DNA of 27,482 nt from positions 1 to 27,482 of IMG/VR virus record IMGVR_UViG_3300027771_000076. The stretch is one strand, 5' to 3'. Shown here piece after piece: positions 13,057 to 23,628 of the stretch (its first letter is position 1; every line of letters starts with the position of its first letter). Made by a program: the position numbers and the translations under genes. Under the pieces are notes generated by a model. The model was not told where the DNA came from. It saw only the letters and a list, made by a program, of their open reading frames with translations, and ran no database searches. Source of the DNA: a virus.

Positions 13057-13473
13057 CTAAACTAATGCTTCTTTAATTAATTGATTTCGTTTTTTGTCTA
13101 TTTTGTCATAAAGGTTTTGTGATTGAACAATGCCGCTACAAGCACCAGAAGATCGCTCAATAAAATACTTAGAACATTCCTTGTAAGACAATCCAACAGC
13201 ACGAAGGTTAATTATTTTTCTCAACTCTTCACTGCTCCAAGTTACTGATTCACGCGCTGTAATATGCGATTTTATTTCTTTATTTGTTGAATGATCTGAG
13301 TTAGTTTCCCACTTATACGAACCTTTGGCTGTTGCTTTATCAGATAACATCATTACATCACTTTCAGAATAAATAATGCTTGAAAGATCATCTGATTTTC
13401 TTTTTGTAAATATTAAGGCTCCTTCTCTCCATATTTTTTGCATTGCTAAATCAAAATCTGAATCATTGTTCAT
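13057..13473 (-). CDS. Hypothetical protein with C-terminal helix-turn-helix
   Basis: The 138-residue product has a helical N-terminal part and a DNA-binding-like region at about residues 79-116: a W-S-S-E-E-L start, then RKIINLRAVGLSYKECSKYF and ERSSGACSGIV. That order (Trp, acidic helix, Gly-Leu-Ser turn, recognition-like helix) resembles Myb/GcrA-type and sigma region 4-type helix-turn-helices in phage proteins. AAAGGA precedes the ATG, and the ATG shares one base with the stop of the upstream gene. It is the last gene of a reverse-strand cassette. A role as a transcription regulator is inferred only from the helix-turn-helix pattern. Confidence 0.68.
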   Translation of the reverse strand: MNNDSDFDLAMQKIWREGALIFTKRKSDDLSSIIYSESDVMMLSDKATAKGSYKWETNSDHSTNKEIKSHITARESVTWSSEELRKIINLRAVGLSYKECSKYFIERSSGACSGIVQSQNLYDKIDKKRNQLIKEALV

Positions 13474-13787
13474 TATTTCGTCCTTTTTGAGCCGTAATTA
13501 CTTAGGATACACCAGCCCCAAAAATCACCATCAATACCATCAATGTAACAATCGTCCCAAAACAAGCCAGCTTTAAAGCCTTCACTTTTTAAAATCTGCA
13601 ACGCAATCACAGCTTGCAGTGCGCCATCACTTACCCAATGCACATGACTGTCGGATAAATCAAACTCTTTTATTTCGTCACCATCTTCCCAGATAAAGCG
13701 ATCATAATTAGACATTTCAATTCCGTCAGTTGAACATTGCGCATGACTAAACATTTTAAAGTGCTTCAAGGTTAGTTCAAGATTCAT
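13473..13787 (-). CDS. Hypothetical acidic protein with an exceptionally strong ribosome site
   Basis: The 104-residue product is acidic and aromatic-rich (YDRFIWEDGDEIKEFDLSDS, then FWDDCYIDGIDGDFWGW). No domain is recognised. Its ATG is preceded at the best spacing by TAAGGAGGTGAT, a 12-of-12 match to the anti-Shine-Dalgarno end of 16S rRNA. This is far stronger than other ribosome sites in the window and points to high translation. It overlaps the end of the upstream ribbon-helix-helix-like gene by 11 bases and shares one base with the downstream gene. High output of a small acidic unknown protein next to attP suits an accessory or host-takeover gene, but this is inference. Confidence 0.68.
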   Translation of the reverse strand: MNLELTLKHFKMFSHAQCSTDGIEMSNYDRFIWEDGDEIKEFDLSDSHVHWVSDGALQAVIALQILKSEGFKAGLFWDDCYIDGIDGDFWGWCILSNYGSKRTK

Positions 13788-13971
13788 GTATCACCTCCTT
13801 ATTAGCTGCATCGTTAAGCGCATTAGTCACCCACTCTGCCAGCTTTTTACCCTTAGCAGCATGAACCCATACCGCTTTCTGTTGTGGGGTGCAGCGTACC
13901 TCAAGGCGTGAGGACTTGGTTAGCTCTTTGCTGGCATTCTTCTGGCCTGTCATTCCATGCTCAATCATCAT
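13777..13971 (-). CDS. Ribbon-helix-helix-like small protein
   Basis: The C-terminal 45 residues (SSRLEVRCTPQQKAVWVHAAKGKKLAEWVTNALNDAA; described in parts) follow the order short strand, helix with Trp, then helix with AEWV. This is the usual ribbon-helix-helix layout of small phage and plasmid regulators, and RLEVR-type strands contact DNA in that family. The start is uncertain: TTG at 13980, ATG at 13971 or 13968, or ATG at 13953 (MTGQKNASKEL) are possible, and none has a strong ribosome site. It overlaps both neighbours. A regulator or an antitoxin-like function is possible. No matching toxin is evident, although the two neighbouring small genes are candidates. Confidence 0.66.
   Translation of the reverse strand: MMIEHGMTGQKNASKELTKSSRLEVRCTPQQKAVWVHAAKGKKLAEWVTNALNDAANKEVIHES
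13790..13801 (-). promoter_or_regulatory. Full-length Shine-Dalgarno, 12 of 12
   Basis: On the plus strand this reads ATCACCTCCTTA, identical to the bacterial 16S rRNA 3' end. On the minus strand it gives TAAGGAGGTGAT, 2 bases before the ATG at 13787, with six bases between AGGAGG and ATG. It is inside the last codons of the upstream gene (Asn-Lys-Glu-Val-Ile-His). Confidence 0.85.
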
Positions 13972-14227
13972 ACGCCCCAAGTTCTTTCATGGTTAAATCT
14001 TGGTTTTCTTCAAGGTAAGATTTTTTATCTTGATAAACATACTTAACATTTTCTAACACTGCTTTAATTGTGTATTCGTGAATACATGAGGTGCCATTTA
14101 GATATTCATACCAACTAGGCTGTAAGTAGAGCCAAGTACCGCCACCATCAAGGCCATTACCATCATACTCGACACTTTTAAATTTATATGGATGCTTTTT
14201 CATAAGCCGATCAATCTGTTTACTCAT
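13961..14227 (-). CDS. Hypothetical small protein of the reverse cassette
   Basis: The 88-residue product has a basic start (MSKQIDRLMKKHPYKFKSVEY), a Gly/Tyr/Trp-rich middle (GNGLDGGGTWLYLQPSWYEYL) and a charged end. AAAGGAA precedes the ATG. A UNCG-loop hairpin lies about 15 bases further upstream in the message. No family is recognised. It is transcribed with its neighbours from the promoter at 14855-14883. Confidence 0.66.
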   Translation of the reverse strand: MSKQIDRLMKKHPYKFKSVEYDGNGLDGGGTWLYLQPSWYEYLNGTSCIHEYTIKAVLENVKYVYQDKKSYLEENQDLTMKELGAYDD

Positions 14228-14243
14228 GGTAATTCCTTTTAGT

Positions 14244-14257
14244 GGGGCCGTAGCCCC
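14244..14257 (-). promoter_or_regulatory. Intergenic RNA hairpin with UACG loop
   Basis: On the minus strand GGGGC-TACG-GCCCC forms five G-C pairs around a C(UACG)G loop, one of the UNCG class of extra-stable tetraloops. It sits just upstream of the ribosome site of the gene starting at 14227. No U run follows, so it is probably an mRNA stability or processing element and not a terminator. Confidence 0.6.
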
Positions 14258-14265
14258 TTTATTAA

Positions 14266-14511
14266 TTAACAGTCGTAAGGTACATCATTAAATTTATCGT
14301 AATCACGAACATCATCTATAGCACTTTTACCCCACGATATTTGCTTGGCTGCATGTTTAGCAGTATTAGGGTAGTAATAATTAAATAAAACTTTACGCAT
14401 GGAGCTGATGTTATTGCTGTAACAAGCCCGCTCATAGTCACGATTATCATCGTCTAAAAAAATACGCTCATGGATATAGTCTGGCGAAATAAATAATGTT
14501 TGGGTATTCAT
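14266..14511 (-). CDS. Hypothetical small protein of the reverse cassette
   Basis: The start at 14511 is preferred because GGGAG lies 6 bases upstream; a longer reading from 14565 would run through a stable hairpin. The product of about 81 residues starts MNTQTLFISPDYIHERIFLDD and continues with an aromatic, charged region (RKVLFNYYYPNTAKHAAKQI) that ends with several Asp residues. No family is recognised. Many Tyr, His and Asp residues suggest a small globular protein. It lies between two UNCG hairpins in the same message. Confidence 0.66.
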   Translation of the reverse strand: MNTQTLFISPDYIHERIFLDDDNRDYERACYSNNISSMRKVLFNYYYPNTAKHAAKQISWGKSAIDDVRDYDKFNDVPYDC

Positions 14512-14524
14512 GTGATGCTCCCTT

Positions 14525-14538
14525 GGGGCCGAAGCCCC
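14525..14538 (-). promoter_or_regulatory. Intergenic RNA hairpin with UUCG loop
   Basis: On the minus strand GGGGC-TTCG-GCCCC gives five G-C pairs closed by C(UUCG)G, the most stable tetraloop class. It has the same stem as the element at 14244 and the same place, about 14 bases before the start codon of the next small gene. No U run follows it. Confidence 0.62.
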
Positions 14539-14546
14539 TATTGTTG

Positions 14547-14813
14547 TTATGCTACCCGAATCCAAACTGCTAGGTCATTTCCTTGCTGATAAGCTTTCTT
14601 GCCGTCACGAGAAAAATAATTAAACATATCAATGTCGCCACTAACGTAAGTCCCATTAACACCGTAAACAAGGCCAATGTCTTTTCCGTAGTCTTTAGAA
14701 GAATCACGAACTACAATTTCCGTAATTGCATAAACGAAACCTTCTTTCAACATATGATCGCCAATTTTCATTTCAGTTGGCTCAATGCGCTTTGTGTTTA
14801 ATAAAGTATTCAT
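14547..14813 (-). CDS. Hypothetical first protein of the reverse cassette
   Basis: The 88-residue product starts MNTLLNTKRIEPTEMKIGDHM and has a beta-rich middle (GFVYAITEIVVRDSSKDYGKDIGLVYGVNGTYV; described in parts) followed by a Lys/Gln-rich end. The KIGDHMLKEG and GLVYGVNGTYVSGD segments suggest a small beta-barrel, but no family is recognised. AAAGGT precedes the ATG. It is the first gene after the sigma70-like promoter at 14855-14883. Confidence 0.66.
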   Translation of the reverse strand: MNTLLNTKRIEPTEMKIGDHMLKEGFVYAITEIVVRDSSKDYGKDIGLVYGVNGTYVSGDIDMFNYFSRDGKKAYQQGNDLAVWIRVA

Positions 14814-14906: not shown

Positions 14907-15156
14907 TCGCCTAATATACAGTGGTTTGAAAGTAAATAAACCGCGTATTTATTGGGGTGTTTTTTTATAATTAGTTAGGCGAGGGGGTGGTATCTTGTTG
15001 ATTTATAAGAAAAAACCTACAGATTGCAAATCCGTTTACCCCAGTTCGATTCTGGGTTCGGCCTCCATTATACGGGCGTTTCAGCGATAGCGGTTACTCT
15101 CGCCTAACACCGCCTAATATTTCGCCTAATATACAGTGCTGGATTTATATACAGTA
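14907..15156. repeat. Integrase arm-type repeats around attP
   Basis: The 17-base word TCGCCTAATATACAGTG occurs at 14907-14923 and again at 15122-15138. Shorter related copies are the inverted GTTAGGCGAG at 14974-14983, CTCGCCTAAC at 15099-15108, CGCCTAATAT at 15111-15120 and TATACAGTA at 15148-15156. They lie on both sides of the tRNA-Cys fragment. This is the layout of arm-binding sites for a tyrosine integrase N-terminal domain. This 349-base gap (14814-15162) otherwise holds the cassette promoter and the attP core, and no further gene was seen in it. Confidence 0.72.
15016..15067 (+). other. attP core: 3' part of a tRNA-Cys gene
   Basis: The segment reads as the anticodon loop TTGCAAA (GCA anticodon, 15024-15030), the 3' anticodon stem TCCGT, a T arm CCCAG-TTCGATT-CTGGG (15040-15056), a 3' acceptor strand TTCGGCC, a U discriminator and CCA (ends 15067). 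These are the traits of tRNA-Cys. There is no D arm or 5' acceptor strand, so it is not a working tRNA. At 15021 an A would mismatch the stem C at 15033, so identity to the host gene probably begins at about 15022. Integration here would rebuild the host tRNA 3' end. The integrase stop lies 96 bases away. Confidence 0.85.
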
Positions 15157-15162
15157 GTTGGG

Positions 15163-16167
15163 TTATTTTAAGGTTGGAACGATCTTTATTTTGCGTGAAT
15201 AATTTTGAGCTTGCGCTTCGGTCTTGTGACCTGAGAACTCTTGCAAGTTTCCTGTGTAATCACTTATTGATTTAGCCTTGATGTCGTGAAAATTAAAATC
15301 GTTTATCCACTCCCCAGTATGATTTTCCCAAGCCTCTTTTCTGGCAGCCGAATACCACTTAGCCATCGTTGTCTGCATTGGATGATTACCATTCTTATCT
15401 GCGAACACATATTTCATACTCATTACGGTCTGAACTGATAGGGCCAGATCAACAGCAGCCATTAGTCGTGGGTTCCACATCTTAATTTGTTTAGCACCAG
15501 TCTTGTTTTGGCGAATGTAAATACCCTCTTCACGCAAGTCTGCGCGCGTCAAATTCCAAACATCCCCTTGTCTGGCAGCGCAACAGTAACTTATCTCCAT
15601 TGCAGCCGCTAACAGGGGCCACCTTGCATAAGCCTGCCCCAATACTTTGTTATACTCCCAATCCTCAATGTAACGCTCACGATGCGGCTCTGCGAACTTA
15701 CGAACACCTTTACATGGGTTAGCCTTAACCTTGCCGTTCTCATACGCCCATGAAAACACAGCACTCATAAACGAGTGTTCGCGGTTTGCTTGAACAATTG
15801 TGGTCTTTGCTCTTTGATCCATGTAGCGTCTTATATGATGGGGCTGAATACGATGCTTATTTGTCTTAGAAAACACAAGACCCACCCGATTTCCATAACC
15901 TAAATAATCTTTCTTTGTCCTAGTGCTTAGTTTTAAATAATTAGACCCTGCGAAATACTCACGCATCAATTGAGCAAACGCGCCAGTGGGTTCTTCGCTC
16001 AAAGACACTGCTGCATAATACTTAGATAATATAATTTCTTTATCTTCTGTCAACGCACCCAACCTAACTGAGCCGCCAGACTTTGGGTGGTACTCATAAG
16101 ACACCCGCCCCATGTAGCAGCGAGTAGGTAGCCATTCTGGCCCTTTGGTGCGTTTGCGAGGAGACAT
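15163..16167 (-). CDS. int: Tyrosine-type site-specific integrase
   Basis: The 334-residue product has an N-terminal arm-binding region, a core-binding domain at about residues 62-160 (TGAFAQLMREYF, SFMSAVFSWAYENG, KANPCKGVRKF) and a C-terminal catalytic domain. Visible catalytic residues are R199 (CCAARQGDVWNL), K222 (RQNKTGAKQI), H294 and K297 (FHDIKAKSISD), H314 (SGHKTEAQ) and the nucleophile Y323 (AQNYSRKI). The usual HxxR is HxxK here, a variant common in this integrase group. It catalyses recombination between attP at 15022-15067 and a host tRNA-Cys gene. It is the last gene of the leftward early operon and reads toward attP. Confidence 0.93.
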   Translation of the reverse strand: MSPRKRTKGPEWLPTRCYMGRVSYEYHPKSGGSVRLGALTEDKEIILSKYYAAVSLSEEPTGAFAQLMREYFAGSNYLKLSTRTKKDYLGYGNRVGLVFSKTNKHRIQPHHIRRYMDQRAKTTIVQANREHSFMSAVFSWAYENGKVKANPCKGVRKFAEPHRERYIEDWEYNKVLGQAYARWPLLAAAMEISYCCAARQGDVWNLTRADLREEGIYIRQNKTGAKQIKMWNPRLMAAVDLALSVQTVMSMKYVFADKNGNHPMQTTMAKWYSAARKEAWENHTGEWINDFNFHDIKAKSISDYTGNLQEFSGHKTEAQAQNYSRKIKIVPTLK

Positions 16168-16169
16168 AA

Positions 16170-16412
16170 TTAACCCATTGCCGAGAAGTCTGGTTCATGT
16201 TCTTTTAATCTTACTAGCTCTGATTCATTTTTGCGAGGCGGGTTATTGAACTCCCACCAAGTTAGGCGGGGCTTTCCGTTGCCGTTCTCAATAAATGTAC
16301 AACCCTTATGTTTTAGCCTATCACACTGCTTTGACGCGGCTTTAAAACCCGTTCCTTCTTCTAAGTCATCGGAAGTCATAAACGTCATCATTGGGTGATT
16401 CATATTATTCAT
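16170..16412 (-). CDS. DUF4224-type small protein, possible excision factor
   Basis: The 80-residue product contains FMTSDDLEEGTGFKAASKQ, CDRLKHKGCTF and NGKPRLTW. This matches the pattern of DUF4224 proteins (a short L/SDxELxxLTGyk segment, a KQxxxL helix and a GxPR strand), a family usually found next to phage integrases. It ends two bases before the integrase start and overlaps the previous gene by four bases. Its position suggests it controls integrase direction or aids excision, but that role is inferred. It has the small winged-helix size typical of directionality factors. Confidence 0.75.
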   Translation of the reverse strand: MNNMNHPMMTFMTSDDLEEGTGFKAASKQCDRLKHKGCTFIENGNGKPRLTWWEFNNPPRKNESELVRLKEHEPDFSAMG

Positions 16413-18957: not shown

Positions 18958-19296
18958 TCACAGATCCCCCTTCTGGTAGTCAGGCACAATATTAGAATTG
19001 TAGAAGTCGTTAGCAGCGGCATTCATTAGAGCCACTAATCCGCGCCATTTGGTTGCGGCATCGGCATCAGTGAGTGGTTCACCCTTTAGCGCGTCCATCT
19101 GTATAGCGTCATGGGCAATCTGGCGAGTGGAGAAGTCAATATGCTCAAGCAAGTCGTTAGGCTCAACACTTCCTTCTGGCGTTGTGAATGAATCCTGTGC
19201 GGTAAACTCAGCAATAAAATCTGAAAGATCAGGGGTTACGATTTGCCCACATTCATTACGATTGAAGTGCTTGTTAATTCTGTTATATGCGTTCAT
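18958..19296 (-). CDS. Hypothetical early protein, first gene of the leftward operon
   Basis: The 112-residue product is acidic. It begins MNAYNRINKHFNRNECGQIV, then has DLSDFIAEFTAQDSF and a helical second half with HIDFSTRQIAHDAIQMDAL and WRGLVALMNAAANDFYN. No family is recognised. It is the first gene after the leftward promoter and operator at 19330-19358, so it should be expressed earliest in infection or induction. Many first-position early genes act on host functions, but nothing here proves that. Confidence 0.68.
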   Translation of the reverse strand: MNAYNRINKHFNRNECGQIVTPDLSDFIAEFTAQDSFTTPEGSVEPNDLLEHIDFSTRQIAHDAIQMDALKGEPLTDADAATKWRGLVALMNAAANDFYNSNIVPDYQKGDL

Positions 19297-19329: not shown

Positions 19330-19358
19330 AGTGTAAGTCAACTAACACTGCAAAGCAA
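19330..19358 (-). promoter_or_regulatory. Leftward early promoter overlapping an operator
   Basis: On the minus strand TTGCTT (19353-19358) is followed after 17 bases by TACACT (19330-19335). It points to the leftward operon starting at 19296. The palindrome at 19332-19347 covers the -10 and the following spacer, so a bound repressor would block it. Confidence 0.6.
19332..19347. promoter_or_regulatory. Operator OL, imperfect 16-bp palindrome
   Basis: TGTAAGTCAACTAACA matches 13 of 16 bases of the operator at 20375. The palindrome can be extended outward to AGTGT...ACACT. It overlaps the leftward promoter. A half-site (AGTGTGAGTT) lies at 19388-19397. Confidence 0.65.
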
Positions 19359-19482: not shown

Positions 19483-19692
19483 TTAGTTAACTAGAGGGGG
19501 TCCAGTGTGCTTGTTCGCTAACTGGTTAAGTCCCATGGGAACTAAGCTAAAATTACAGACTGGCACGGGATTTGTCCGTGGCATTAAGTCGTCCATCCAG
19601 TCCGTGTGCACGATAAACCAAGGGTAAATGTCGATTTCTCGCATCCACGCTAGTTTTCTGCAGCGGGCTTTTGATTGGTTTAAGCTATTCAT
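19483..19692 (-). CDS. Hypothetical protein downstream of the repressor
   Basis: The 69-residue product is Trp/Met/Pro-rich and basic at its start (SKARCRKLAWMREIDIYPWF, then VHTDWMDDLMPRTNPVPV). It begins 4 bases after the repressor stop on the same strand, so it would share the repressor transcript and be expressed in the lysogen. The ribosome site is weak. Genes in this place often alter superinfection or host traits, but no motif supports a specific role here. It could also be non-coding; the 186 bases beyond it up to 19296 hold the operator region. Confidence 0.45.
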   Translation of the reverse strand: MNSLNQSKARCRKLAWMREIDIYPWFIVHTDWMDDLMPRTNPVPVCNFSLVPMGLNQLANKHTGPPLVN

Positions 19693-19696
19693 TATA

Positions 19697-20329
19697 TTAT
19701 TCAGCCATGTATGAGCCGACTATTACTCCTATTATTTTGGTATATTCGTTAAATTGTTGAATAGGGTAGGCCACATTAAGCGGCTTTAAATATTTTACAC
19801 CCCCATCTAACACGTATTCTCTGAATACAGATTCATCGGTAAATGTATTAATTGCAATAACCCTATCTCCTGTTTTTGGGGTTTTTGTTTGGTCAATAAA
19901 AATTAGCGTTCCTTTAGAGTATGACCTGCCATTAGGCGCGGTCATGACATCATTTTTTACTTCTAATGCAAAAGAATTGTCCCCGATGTCGTAAGGGCAT
20001 CCTACAAACTGGTCATTATCACCCATTTCAAATGAGCCTTTTATTATACTAGGCAAAGAACTCCAGCTTATTACTGGGAGTTTCTTTGTAATCGGTTGAA
20101 GTTTCAAACCTTTCAAGAGTCCAAGCTCGTCATCTGAAATCAATTGTTCAGTTGAGTACCCGAATGCTTTTGCTAGAGAAACTAAGGTATCGCCCTTTAC
20201 CTCGGCTAGAGGGTTAGTTTCGATTTGGGCAATGCGCCCACGACTTAAGTTAGTTCTTTTTGATAAATCAAGTTGTGTCCAGCCCTGATCTTTCCGTAAA
20301 CCTTTAACTCGCTTTCCGAGGTCTAACAT
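19697..20329 (-). CDS. CI-like repressor with degenerate S24 domain
   Basis: The 210-residue product has an N-terminal helix-turn-helix in residues 4-60 (GKRVKGLRKDQGWTQLDLS, then LSRGRIAQIETN) and a C-terminal LexA/CI-like domain in residues 84-208. In cleavable repressors of this type the linker reads SWxxAG, the Ser lies in a GDSM or GNSM motif and the Lys in FTFK or VKR. Here the aligned positions are L92-P93 (ISWSSLPS), V128 (VKNDVMTAP) and R170 (SVFREY). The fold remains (YLKPLNVAYP; IGVIVGSY), so dimerisation is likely, but self-cleavage is not. AAAGGA precedes the ATG. It should bind the 16-bp operators at 19332, 20375 and 20432. Confidence 0.9.
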   Translation of the reverse strand: MLDLGKRVKGLRKDQGWTQLDLSKRTNLSRGRIAQIETNPLAEVKGDTLVSLAKAFGYSTEQLISDDELGLLKGLKLQPITKKLPVISWSSLPSIIKGSFEMGDNDQFVGCPYDIGDNSFALEVKNDVMTAPNGRSYSKGTLIFIDQTKTPKTGDRVIAINTFTDESVFREYVLDGGVKYLKPLNVAYPIQQFNEYTKIIGVIVGSYMAE

Positions 20330-20374
20330 TTTAAATCCTTTGCTATAAGTTGTTGTGGCTTTTTGCTTCTTTCT

Positions 20375-20390
20375 TGTAAGCCAGCTTACA
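20375..20390. promoter_or_regulatory. Operator OR-a, perfect palindrome
   Basis: TGTAAGCCAGCTTACA has perfect 7-base arms around a 2-base centre. It lies between the repressor start (20329) and the rightward promoter, a good position for control of the repressor's own transcription. Confidence 0.75.
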
Positions 20391-20410
20391 TGTTATTAGT
20401 GTTCAAGAGG

Positions 20411-20439
20411 TTGACAGCAGAATGTGCCTGCAGTAACAT
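20411..20439 (+). promoter_or_regulatory. Rightward early promoter (PR-like)
   Basis: A perfect TTGACA (20411-20416) is followed after 17 bases by TAACAT (20434-20439, 4 of 6). It faces the Cro-like gene. The expected transcript start, about 7 bases after the -10, coincides with the ATG at 20447. Confidence 0.75.
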
Positions 20440-20447
20440 ACCTTACA
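20432..20447. promoter_or_regulatory. Operator OR-b overlapping the -10
   Basis: AGTAACATACCTTACA matches 11 of 16 bases of the perfect operator at 20375. The CTTACA arm is complete. It covers the -10 and the transcription start of the rightward promoter. Confidence 0.6.
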
Positions 20448-20629
20448 TGAAAATACTTAAAGCAGAAGCCGTAGACACATTCGGTGGTGTCACAAAACTA
20501 GCGATTGCTCTTGGAATTCAGCACTCAGCCGTTTCTCAGTGGGGCGAATACGTTCCTGCTTTGCGCGGCTACCAGATTCATGAGCTTCTAACTCAAACAA
20601 ATCGAACTGCTCAGTCAAAGGTGGCGTAA
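20447..20629 (+). CDS. Cro-like repressor, predicted leaderless
   Basis: The ATG at 20447 gives a 60-residue product: MKILKAEAVDTFGGVTKLAI, then LGIQHSAVSQWGEYVPALRGYQIHEL. The FGG-VTKLA-LGI-AVSQWGE-VP order is the short Cro family of P22 and related lambdoid phages. It is a one-domain helix-turn-helix with recognition helix SAVSQWGE. There is no Shine-Dalgarno before this ATG and the promoter -10 ends 7 bases upstream, so the message is probably leaderless. An upstream TTG at 20363 would place promoter and operator inside the gene and is not favoured. Its stop shares one base with the next start (TAATG). It should bind the same operators as the repressor. Confidence 0.87.
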   Translation: MKILKAEAVDTFGGVTKLAIALGIQHSAVSQWGEYVPALRGYQIHELLTQTNRTAQSKVA

Positions 20630-20847
20630 TGACTGAAAAGTATAAAATGACCGTTAACTTAGATTTAGATAAAGATCTAGTGTTTGGCAAGATGTGTGCC
20701 GCATTAGGGGTATCTAAAACTGAACGTATAAATTTACTCATTTCTCAAGACCTCGAATTCCATAAGCGTTTACATCATGAATTATCTGATGCTTTCCCTG
20801 TCATCTCAAAGGATGTTCAGAGAATACGTGAGAGGGGCTTAGGGTGA
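20629..20847 (+). CDS. Small ribbon-helix-helix-like protein in the cII position
   Basis: The 72-residue product starts with a short strand (KYKMTVNLDLDKDL) followed by two helices (VFGKMCAALGVSKTERINLL, then ISQDLEFHKRLHHEL). This resembles a ribbon-helix-helix DNA-binding fold. It lies directly between the Cro-like and the replication gene, where lambda has cII, but its sequence is not that of CII. Its end overlaps the next start as GTGA. A transcription regulator of the lysis-lysogeny choice is a fair guess, based on position and fold only. Confidence 0.68.
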   Translation: MTEKYKMTVNLDLDKDLVFGKMCAALGVSKTERINLLISQDLEFHKRLHHELSDAFPVISKDVQRIRERGLG

Positions 20848-22436: not shown

Positions 22437-22747
22437 GAATACTTGACCTAGATGAATGTAAGGTTGTAATTAAAAAGATTAATTCTGGCGTTGCTGCAAA
22501 GGTTATTGCCAAGAAGTTTGAAGTGGATCTTTACGATATAACCCTAATAAATCGGTGCAGGTCGAGCAAGTTTCCGCTAGACGACTATAAGTTAATTGAT
22601 GACCCGAATTACAGGCTAGAGGCTATCGATCATAAGTGCAAAATTGCCGAGCCTACAGGCAAGAATTTAGGATCGCAAGGATGGGATATTCGCATGAGCA
22701 TGAAGCTATCACGGCTACCTATGAGTGCTTGGGCGGCTGCTTTATGA
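22433..22747 (+). CDS. Hypothetical nin-region protein
   Basis: The start ATG at 22433 overlaps the previous stop as ATGA. The product of about 104 residues has a helical, possibly DNA-binding start (DECKVVIKKINSGVAAKVIA, then KKFEVDLYDITLINRCR) and a charged tail (LEAIDHKCKIAEPTGKN). No family is recognised. Its stop overlaps the PAPS-reductase-like start as ATGA. It belongs to the tightly coupled early operon. Confidence 0.65.
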   Translation: MRILDLDECKVVIKKINSGVAAKVIAKKFEVDLYDITLINRCRSSKFPLDDYKLIDDPNYRLEAIDHKCKIAEPTGKNLGSQGWDIRMSMKLSRLPMSAWAAAL

Positions 22748-23628
22748 ATAATCAGGTGCCGAAATACAATGTCGTTAGTTTTAGTGGAGGTAGAACTTCG
22801 GCGTATATGATTCATAAGATACAGACAATGGTGTCACAAGGCGCAATAGATAACGTCAAATATGTGTTTATGGATACTGGCGCTGAACACCCCAAGACCT
22901 ACGAGTTTATAAGGAATGTTGTTAAGCACTTCGATATAGATTTAGTGTGTATCCGCGCTGTAATGACCACCGAGGTAGGTATTGGCCCTAAGTTTAAAGA
23001 AATAAGTATCGATGATATTTGTGATGATTATGGCCCGTGGAAAGAAATGATGAAGTGTTATAGCACTCCATTTATTCACGGGCCTATGTGTACTGACCGT
23101 ATGAAGACAGCCCCATACAAAAAATATTGCGACCAGACTTTTGGGCGTAATAATTACACCTCATGGCTGGGCATTAGGATCGATGAACTAAGGCGATTAA
23201 ACCCTAAGAAGGGCTACAGGTTTTTGGCTGAAATATCGCCTATGGATAAACAAGACATTCTAGGATGGTGGAAGGATCAGCCGTTCGACTTAGGTATTGA
23301 CGAGTGGCTAGGCAACTGCGTGTTTTGCATTAAGAAAGGCGTTAACAAGATTGCCCTTGCTGCCATAGACGAGCCTGAACTAGCTAAGGAATTTTGGGAC
23401 ATGCTTAACACTCAGCCTATACGGATTATTGAGACAAGAGAAGATGCCCCACTAATTATGTATCGCGGTAATAACACATTCCAGAGCGCACAAGATTCGT
23501 TTGCAGATTTCAGTAGGGACGAGATCTTATCTAGGATGCGAGGGAATAATGGTGGATGCGCTGAAAGTTGTGAGGTGTTCGGCTGTCAAGGTGACTTATT
23601 CAAGGAAAGCGAAGGGGCGGTAGCATGA
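22744..23628 (+). CDS. PP-loop phosphoadenosine phosphosulfate reductase-like protein
   Basis: The ATG at 22744 overlaps the previous stop as ATGA. The 294-residue product has a PP-loop SFSGGRTSAYM (residues 12-22), a second strand YVFMDTGAEHPKTY (40-53) and TDRMKTAPYKKYC (117-129), all typical of the PAPS-reductase/ATP-pyrophosphatase fold. It has an unusual set of Cys at 105, 116, 129, 192, 195, 272, 276 and 281, with CVFC at 192-195 suggesting an Fe-S or Zn site. The family activates sulfate or uses sulfur chemistry; in phages its substrate is usually unknown. DNA sulfur modification (DndC-like) or cysteine metabolism is possible. It sits among nin genes in the rightward operon. Confidence 0.82.
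   Translation: MNNQVPKYNVVSFSGGRTSAYMIHKIQTMVSQGAIDNVKYVFMDTGAEHPKTYEFIRNVVKHFDIDLVCIRAVMTTEVGIGPKFKEISIDDICDDYGPWKEMMKCYSTPFIHGPMCTDRMKTAPYKKYCDQTFGRNNYTSWLGIRIDELRRLNPKKGYRFLAEISPMDKQDILGWWKDQPFDLGIDEWLGNCVFCIKKGVNKIALAAIDEPELAKEFWDMLNTQPIRIIETREDAPLIMYRGNNTFQSAQDSFADFSRDEILSRMRGNNGGCAESCEVFGCQGDLFKESEGAVA

Follow-up and report, generated by a model that had tools for sequence, protein, structure and literature searches.

The window, a stretch of 27,482 nucleotides of viral DNA, encodes a P22/lambda-type CI repressor that lacks the site of self-cleavage as well as the two catalytic residues. We consider it very probable that this protein is the operator-binding CI of a temperate phage, stripped of self-cleavage, and that the prophage is induced by a route other than repressor self-cleavage. 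cI would maintain lysogeny through its operators at PR and PL, and its C-terminal domain would now be merely a fold for assembly. Activated RecA would be unable to trigger self-cleavage, and repression would be released by another factor. The repressor gene and the codons that matter here are as follows.

19697 to 20329, minus strand: cI, 210 aa, helix-turn-helix (HTH) and S24-fold C-terminal domain, self-cleavage residues absent
20051 to 20056, minus strand: codons of L92-P93, by alignment at the place of Ala-Gly in P22 C2 and lambda CI
19946 to 19948, minus strand: codon of V128, aligned with the catalytic Ser (V in 25/30 sequences, L in 5/30)
19820 to 19822, minus strand: codon of R170, aligned with the catalytic Lys (R in 30/30)

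Pfam matched HTH_3 at residues 10-62 (1.1e-10) and Peptidase_S24 at residues 114-204 (2.4e-13) of cI, which matched PHROG 4, 'transcriptional repressor'. A phmmer search against solved structures gave lambda CI C-terminal domains (best E 3.4e-13). In this alignment, EVKNDVMTAP of cI pairs with EVEGNSMTAP of lambda CI, which places V128 opposite Ser149, and ESVFREYV pairs with EFTFKKLI, which places R170 opposite Lys192 (lambda numbering). The chain of 8gmu, lambda CI in its complex with RecA, reads FAKL at the R170/Lys192 place and so marks this column. When cI was aligned with the repressors of P22 (C2), phage 21 and lambda and with 11 further ones, L92-P93 fell opposite Ala-Gly; these 14 outgroup repressors, taken from an annotated phage collection, all keep Ala-Gly, Ser and Lys. 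Judged as a self-cleaving CI, the protein has the HTH and the S24-fold domain, and has neither the Ala-Gly site (L92-P93 instead) nor the Ser-Lys dyad (V128 and R170 instead).

An AF2 model of cI, built from 17 sequences, had a mean pLDDT of 80.7 and superposed on lambda CI of 8gmu with Z 15.8 and 2.7 A over 123 residues. The aligned ranges are consistent with the register of the sequence alignment, on which the proposed pairing of V128 with Ser149 and of R170 with Lys192 is based. Segment 89-97, the former cleavage segment, is a helix in the model. An earlier note, made by eye, had claimed that Ala-Gly was replaced by L92-P93, the catalytic Ser by V128 and Lys by R170 while the fold remained. 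The first replacement is borne out by the alignment with 14 repressors, the other two by that alignment and the one with lambda CI, and retention of the fold by the S24 match and the superposition on 8gmu. Since all three elements of self-cleavage are lost and the fold is kept, RecA-stimulated cleavage appears very unlikely and another route of induction would be needed. R170 could in principle act as a weak base; Ser has no substitute at the aligned position.

The surroundings of cI were examined for operators and promoters.

20374 to 20391, unstranded: predicted CI operator TTGTAAGCCAGCTTACAT, between cI and cro, rank 1 in the window (score 23.0)
19331 to 19348, unstranded: predicted CI operator GTGTAAGTCAACTAACAC at PL, rank 2 in the window (score 15.2), at the same place in relatives
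20433 to 20446, unstranded: palindrome GTAACATACCTTAC across the PR -10, a weaker operator-like site found by eye
20411 to 20439, plus strand: PR, TTGACA, 17 nt, TAACAT (10/12), consensus-like
19330 to 19358, minus strand: putative PL-like promoter, TTGCTT, 17 nt, TACACT, beneath the operator at 19331 to 19348, found by eye
20447 to 20629, plus strand: cro, P22_Cro family (Pfam PF14549, 1.1e-16)

The ranks and scores come from a matrix made from operator-like sites of relatives only, with which the whole window was scored. Operators thus flank cI on both sides, which argues for a working repressor, very probably a non-cleavable one, and cI would be expected to bind DNA at these predicted sites. 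As a separate observation, the -10 of PR ends 7 bases ahead of the cro ATG at 20447 (stretch 20434-20447), so the cro mRNA may be leaderless and may be translated as such.

The genes and the site for integration were located as follows.

15163 to 16167, minus strand: tyrosine integrase (int)
16170 to 16412, minus strand: excisionase (xis; PHROG 1266, 5e-16)
15010 to 15070, unstranded: attP core, the 3' half of a tRNA-Cys gene

The presence of int, xis, attP and cro indicates a temperate phage, and the intact attP shows that the record does not come from an integrated prophage. The attP core matched tRNA-Cys genes of several groups at 77-85%, and scans of genome contigs found no true relative. 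The lineage is known solely from environmental viral contigs, which are probably marine. Repeats of ACTGTATATTAGGCG, probably integrase arm sites, occur around attP in the window (15120-15155) and in two relatives (L027, 11518-11560; L028, 11620-11660), with one half overlapping a site that resembles a LexA box. Six small minus-strand genes without PHROG matches lie on the other side of attP (13057-14813), and the early region carries a phosphoadenosine phosphosulfate reductase-like gene (22636-23628; PHROG 33262, 1.7e-99).

We then asked how far the altered residues are shared. Relatives, all of them metagenome contigs, were collected from scans of viral contigs with both N-terminal and C-terminal patterns, and their repressors were 59-100% identical. 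Among 30 aligned sequences, L92 and R170 were fixed and residue 128 was V or L in the proportions given above. N126, D127 and S167-V-F-R-E-Y172 were also fixed, and residue 93 was free (P/E/S/R/V/I/A/K). All three elements were absent from 13 of 13 clade representatives. The recurrence of L92, V/L128 and R170 in 30/30 sequences indicates that they reflect neither chance nor sequencing error. Sampling by the integrase (at least 63% identical), which is blind to the repressor, gave no exception: every cI found lacked Ala-Gly, and the contigs without cI stop no more than about 2.5 kb upstream of int, short of the expected place of cI.

The loss of active-site residues could also be read as decay of cI in a phage that is turning virulent or defective. 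We regard this as exceedingly improbable, and it is already contradicted by purifying selection. In pairs with unsaturated dS (more distant pairs were saturated), dN/dS was 0.05-0.13 over cI as a whole and 0.06-0.16 over its C-terminal domain. Reading frames are intact in all relatives, and the operators, int, xis and attP are conserved. The low dN/dS indicates that the C-terminal domain is held by selection without its catalytic parts.

Related repressors of other types were examined for the order of loss. Type B repressors (L129, L137 and L149), which came up in the integrase sample, keep GDSM and TFK and have V-N or V-S at the place of Ala-Gly. A further scan with type B and C queries gave 17 close relatives, and all 17 lacked Ala-Gly. 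Ser and Lys are both kept in L159-L167 and L175, Gln stands at the Ser place in L168-L172 and L174, and L173 has Leu there and keeps Lys; one scan pattern included the Lys motif, so that retention of Lys is biased in this sample. L129, L116 and L159-L167 carry an intact-looking dyad without Ala-Gly, and have nothing of their own to cut. In a tree of C-terminal domains, support was 100/100 for type A, 99/94 for B+C and 93/89 for A+B+C, the last being under the starred support level, with canonical repressors outside. A single loss of Ala-Gly in the common ancestor of A, B and C is likely, not certain. The site would have been lost first, because the sister types still hold Ser and Lys; this one tree suggests that Ser was then lost more than once and Lys last, in type A. 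A further repressor, type E, was not placeable in the tree (branch 9.8), and its nearest phage relative, PP9W, reads IFKRL where type E has HIRRA.

Repressors of P22, phage 21 and lambda are cut with RecA. They resemble cI in combining HTH and S24 domains, in being divergent from a P22_Cro-type cro and in having operators on both sides, and those of P22 and phage 21 are 31-33% identical to it. They keep Ala-Gly, Ser and Lys, whereas cI has none of the three. Non-cleavable repressors are already established, namely 186 CI with Tum (PMC7708051), those of Gifsy phages (PMC3121763), and those of N15 and many telN phages (PMC10432266). Coliphage 186 is the nearer analogue. Its CI shares the lambda-type C-terminal fold found in cI, and Foldseek with the cI model finds the lambda-186 hybrid 7jvt. 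The inducer of phage 186 is Tum, which is made from a LexA-controlled promoter (PMC7708051); its induction does not depend on repressor self-cleavage. It differs in belonging to another phage group and in having Tum, whereas no such gene was found here. The comparison with Gifsy prophages drawn in the earlier note holds in part: the repressors GfoR and GtgR are not cleaved on induction and are controlled by LexA-regulated antirepressors, which lie outside the immunity region (PMC3121763). It does not extend to the architecture, as Gifsy repressors are about 136 aa long without the signature cleavage motif (PMC3121763), whereas cI has 210 aa and an S24 domain. The N15 repressor was shown to be non-proteolytic, and 210 of 271 predicted cI proteins of telN phages, in which no catalytic sites were called, were labelled putatively non-autoproteolytic and set aside in that study (PMC10432266). 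N15 and the telN phages are a different phage group, whereas the phage here has an integrase, xis and a tRNA-Cys attP. Within the literature searched, a lineage with stepwise loss and a tied hypervariable gene appears to be new.

As to how repression might be released, two small early genes had been proposed as antirepressors.

18958 to 19296, minus strand: gene at the head of the PL operon, 112 aa, at least three unrelated types in relatives
20629 to 20847, plus strand: gene behind cro, 72 aa, weakly ParG/ribbon-helix-helix-like, exchanged in relatives

Neither candidate was retained. The first is predicted to lie under the operator-controlled PL-like promoter and the second under PR, downstream of cro, so that in a lysogen neither should escape repression by CI. 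Unrelated or very different genes take the place of each while cI stays more than 99% identical; between L014 and L033, for example, identity is 99.5% for cI, 31.5% for the first PL gene and 35.4% for the gene behind cro.

A LexA-controlled antirepressor elsewhere in the genome, like Tum of phage 186, would be an arrangement already known for repressors that are not cleaved (PMC7708051, PMC3121763), and one LexA-like site, CTGGATTTATATACAG at 15139-15154, was found at two mismatches from the ideal, with 0.2 expected by chance. This site lies inside the attP arm-repeat array beside the end of int, and L027 and L028 carry counterparts in the corresponding position. An integrase arm site is therefore the likelier identity, and the site would be at the prophage end. 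Sites of the form CTGT-N8-ACAG with at most one mismatch were at chance level in the window (11 found, 10.9 expected), and LexA-box scans found no convincing box ahead of an early gene, with the proviso for both results that the LexA motif of the host may differ. In a comparison of eight contigs, some of which are fragments, only cI, cro and the neighbouring gene orf69 were found in every one. We regard such an antirepressor as improbable here.

The common neighbour follows cI directly.

19483 to 19692, minus strand: orf69, 69 aa, hypervariable C-terminal half, 4 nt after cI, no known family

Homologues (L002-L175) have 66-80 aa, and orf69 starts at most 19 nt after cI in the type A loci and in integrase-sampled contigs with a readable downstream gene; in L037 and L046 it either overlaps cI by 4 nt or begins a few nt further on. 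Wherever that downstream gene is readable, orf69 lies 3' of the site-less cI genes sampled by integrase. In the type B and C scan it was present beside 17/17 site-less relatives and 0/63 other repressors, of which 60 keep Ala-Gly and three (L211, L213 and L233) have neither Ala-Gly nor orf69. The loci are related, so a Fisher value for this association is not a true probability, and the association across A, B and C may be a single event. An independent search with a degenerate DNA pattern for the orf69 N-terminus found the gene also beside three more repressor types. Type D has no S24 match, no Ala-Gly and no match in the phage collection; type E has an S24 match with Ser replaced by Ala and Lys by Arg; type F is an HTH-only protein of 114 aa. 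All three look non-cleavable. At the type F locus (L110, 6486-7086) the order is reversed relative to other loci, with orf69 in front and overlapping the start of the repressor, which lacks a C-terminal domain. A hand-made orf69 consensus used as a query returned known loci only, no credible match was found in Pfam, PHROG or NCBIfam, and an AF2 model of Orf69 was not confident (pLDDT 55, pTM 0.21).

orf69 is the most variable gene of the region. Orf69 is 49-69% identical in several pairs whose cI is 99-100% identical. DNA identity is about 95% before the gene, about 40% in its second half and about 90-95% right behind it. L028 and L029 agree at 41 of the first 42 residues and at 5 of the last 25. 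Different, unrelated repressor types are found with the same C-terminal cassettes. This pattern resembles cassette exchange; a dedicated inactivator of CI would fit it less well than a gene for exclusion or immunity specificity.

The likeliest reading, which we hold tentatively, is that orf69 is expressed in the lysogen for exclusion or immunity specificity, travels with the cI cassette and is unrelated to induction. Its place directly behind cI is that of lambda rexA, and the drop of identity inside the gene with recovery after it would fit cassette exchange under competition between phages. This reading alone leaves the absence of orf69 beside Ala-Gly repressors unexplained. The association with site-less cI genes (17/17 in types B and C, against 0/60 Ala-Gly repressors) and with the non-cleavable-looking types D, E and F points instead to a role in place of RecA cleavage. 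Orf69 could be a signal-sensing partner that inactivates CI or delivers it to a protease; alternatively, it could be a co-repressor, and the promoters would be freed by its loss. Such a role is possible but rather unlikely, as orf69 varies far faster than cI, its tails shared among unrelated repressors are ill-suited to a specific CI binder, and it is probably co-transcribed with cI and hence made together with it throughout lysogeny. The possible single event behind the association and the three site-less loci without orf69 also weigh against it. We think it doubtful, though worth stating, that control of lysogeny passed, on the loss of self-cleavage, to Orf69 as a novel type of partner with an exchangeable specificity tail acting as a sensor or as a phage-to-phage recognition tag.

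The preferred reading, a CI stripped of self-cleavage with induction by another route, provides an ordered series for the loss of RecA control in one phage lineage, including intermediates with the dyad but no site. By the same reading, such prophages may go unnoticed in mitomycin C assays. The link between one conserved hypervariable gene and non-cleavable repressors is directly testable. If Orf69 did take over control, a whole phage lineage would have left RecA control for another signal.
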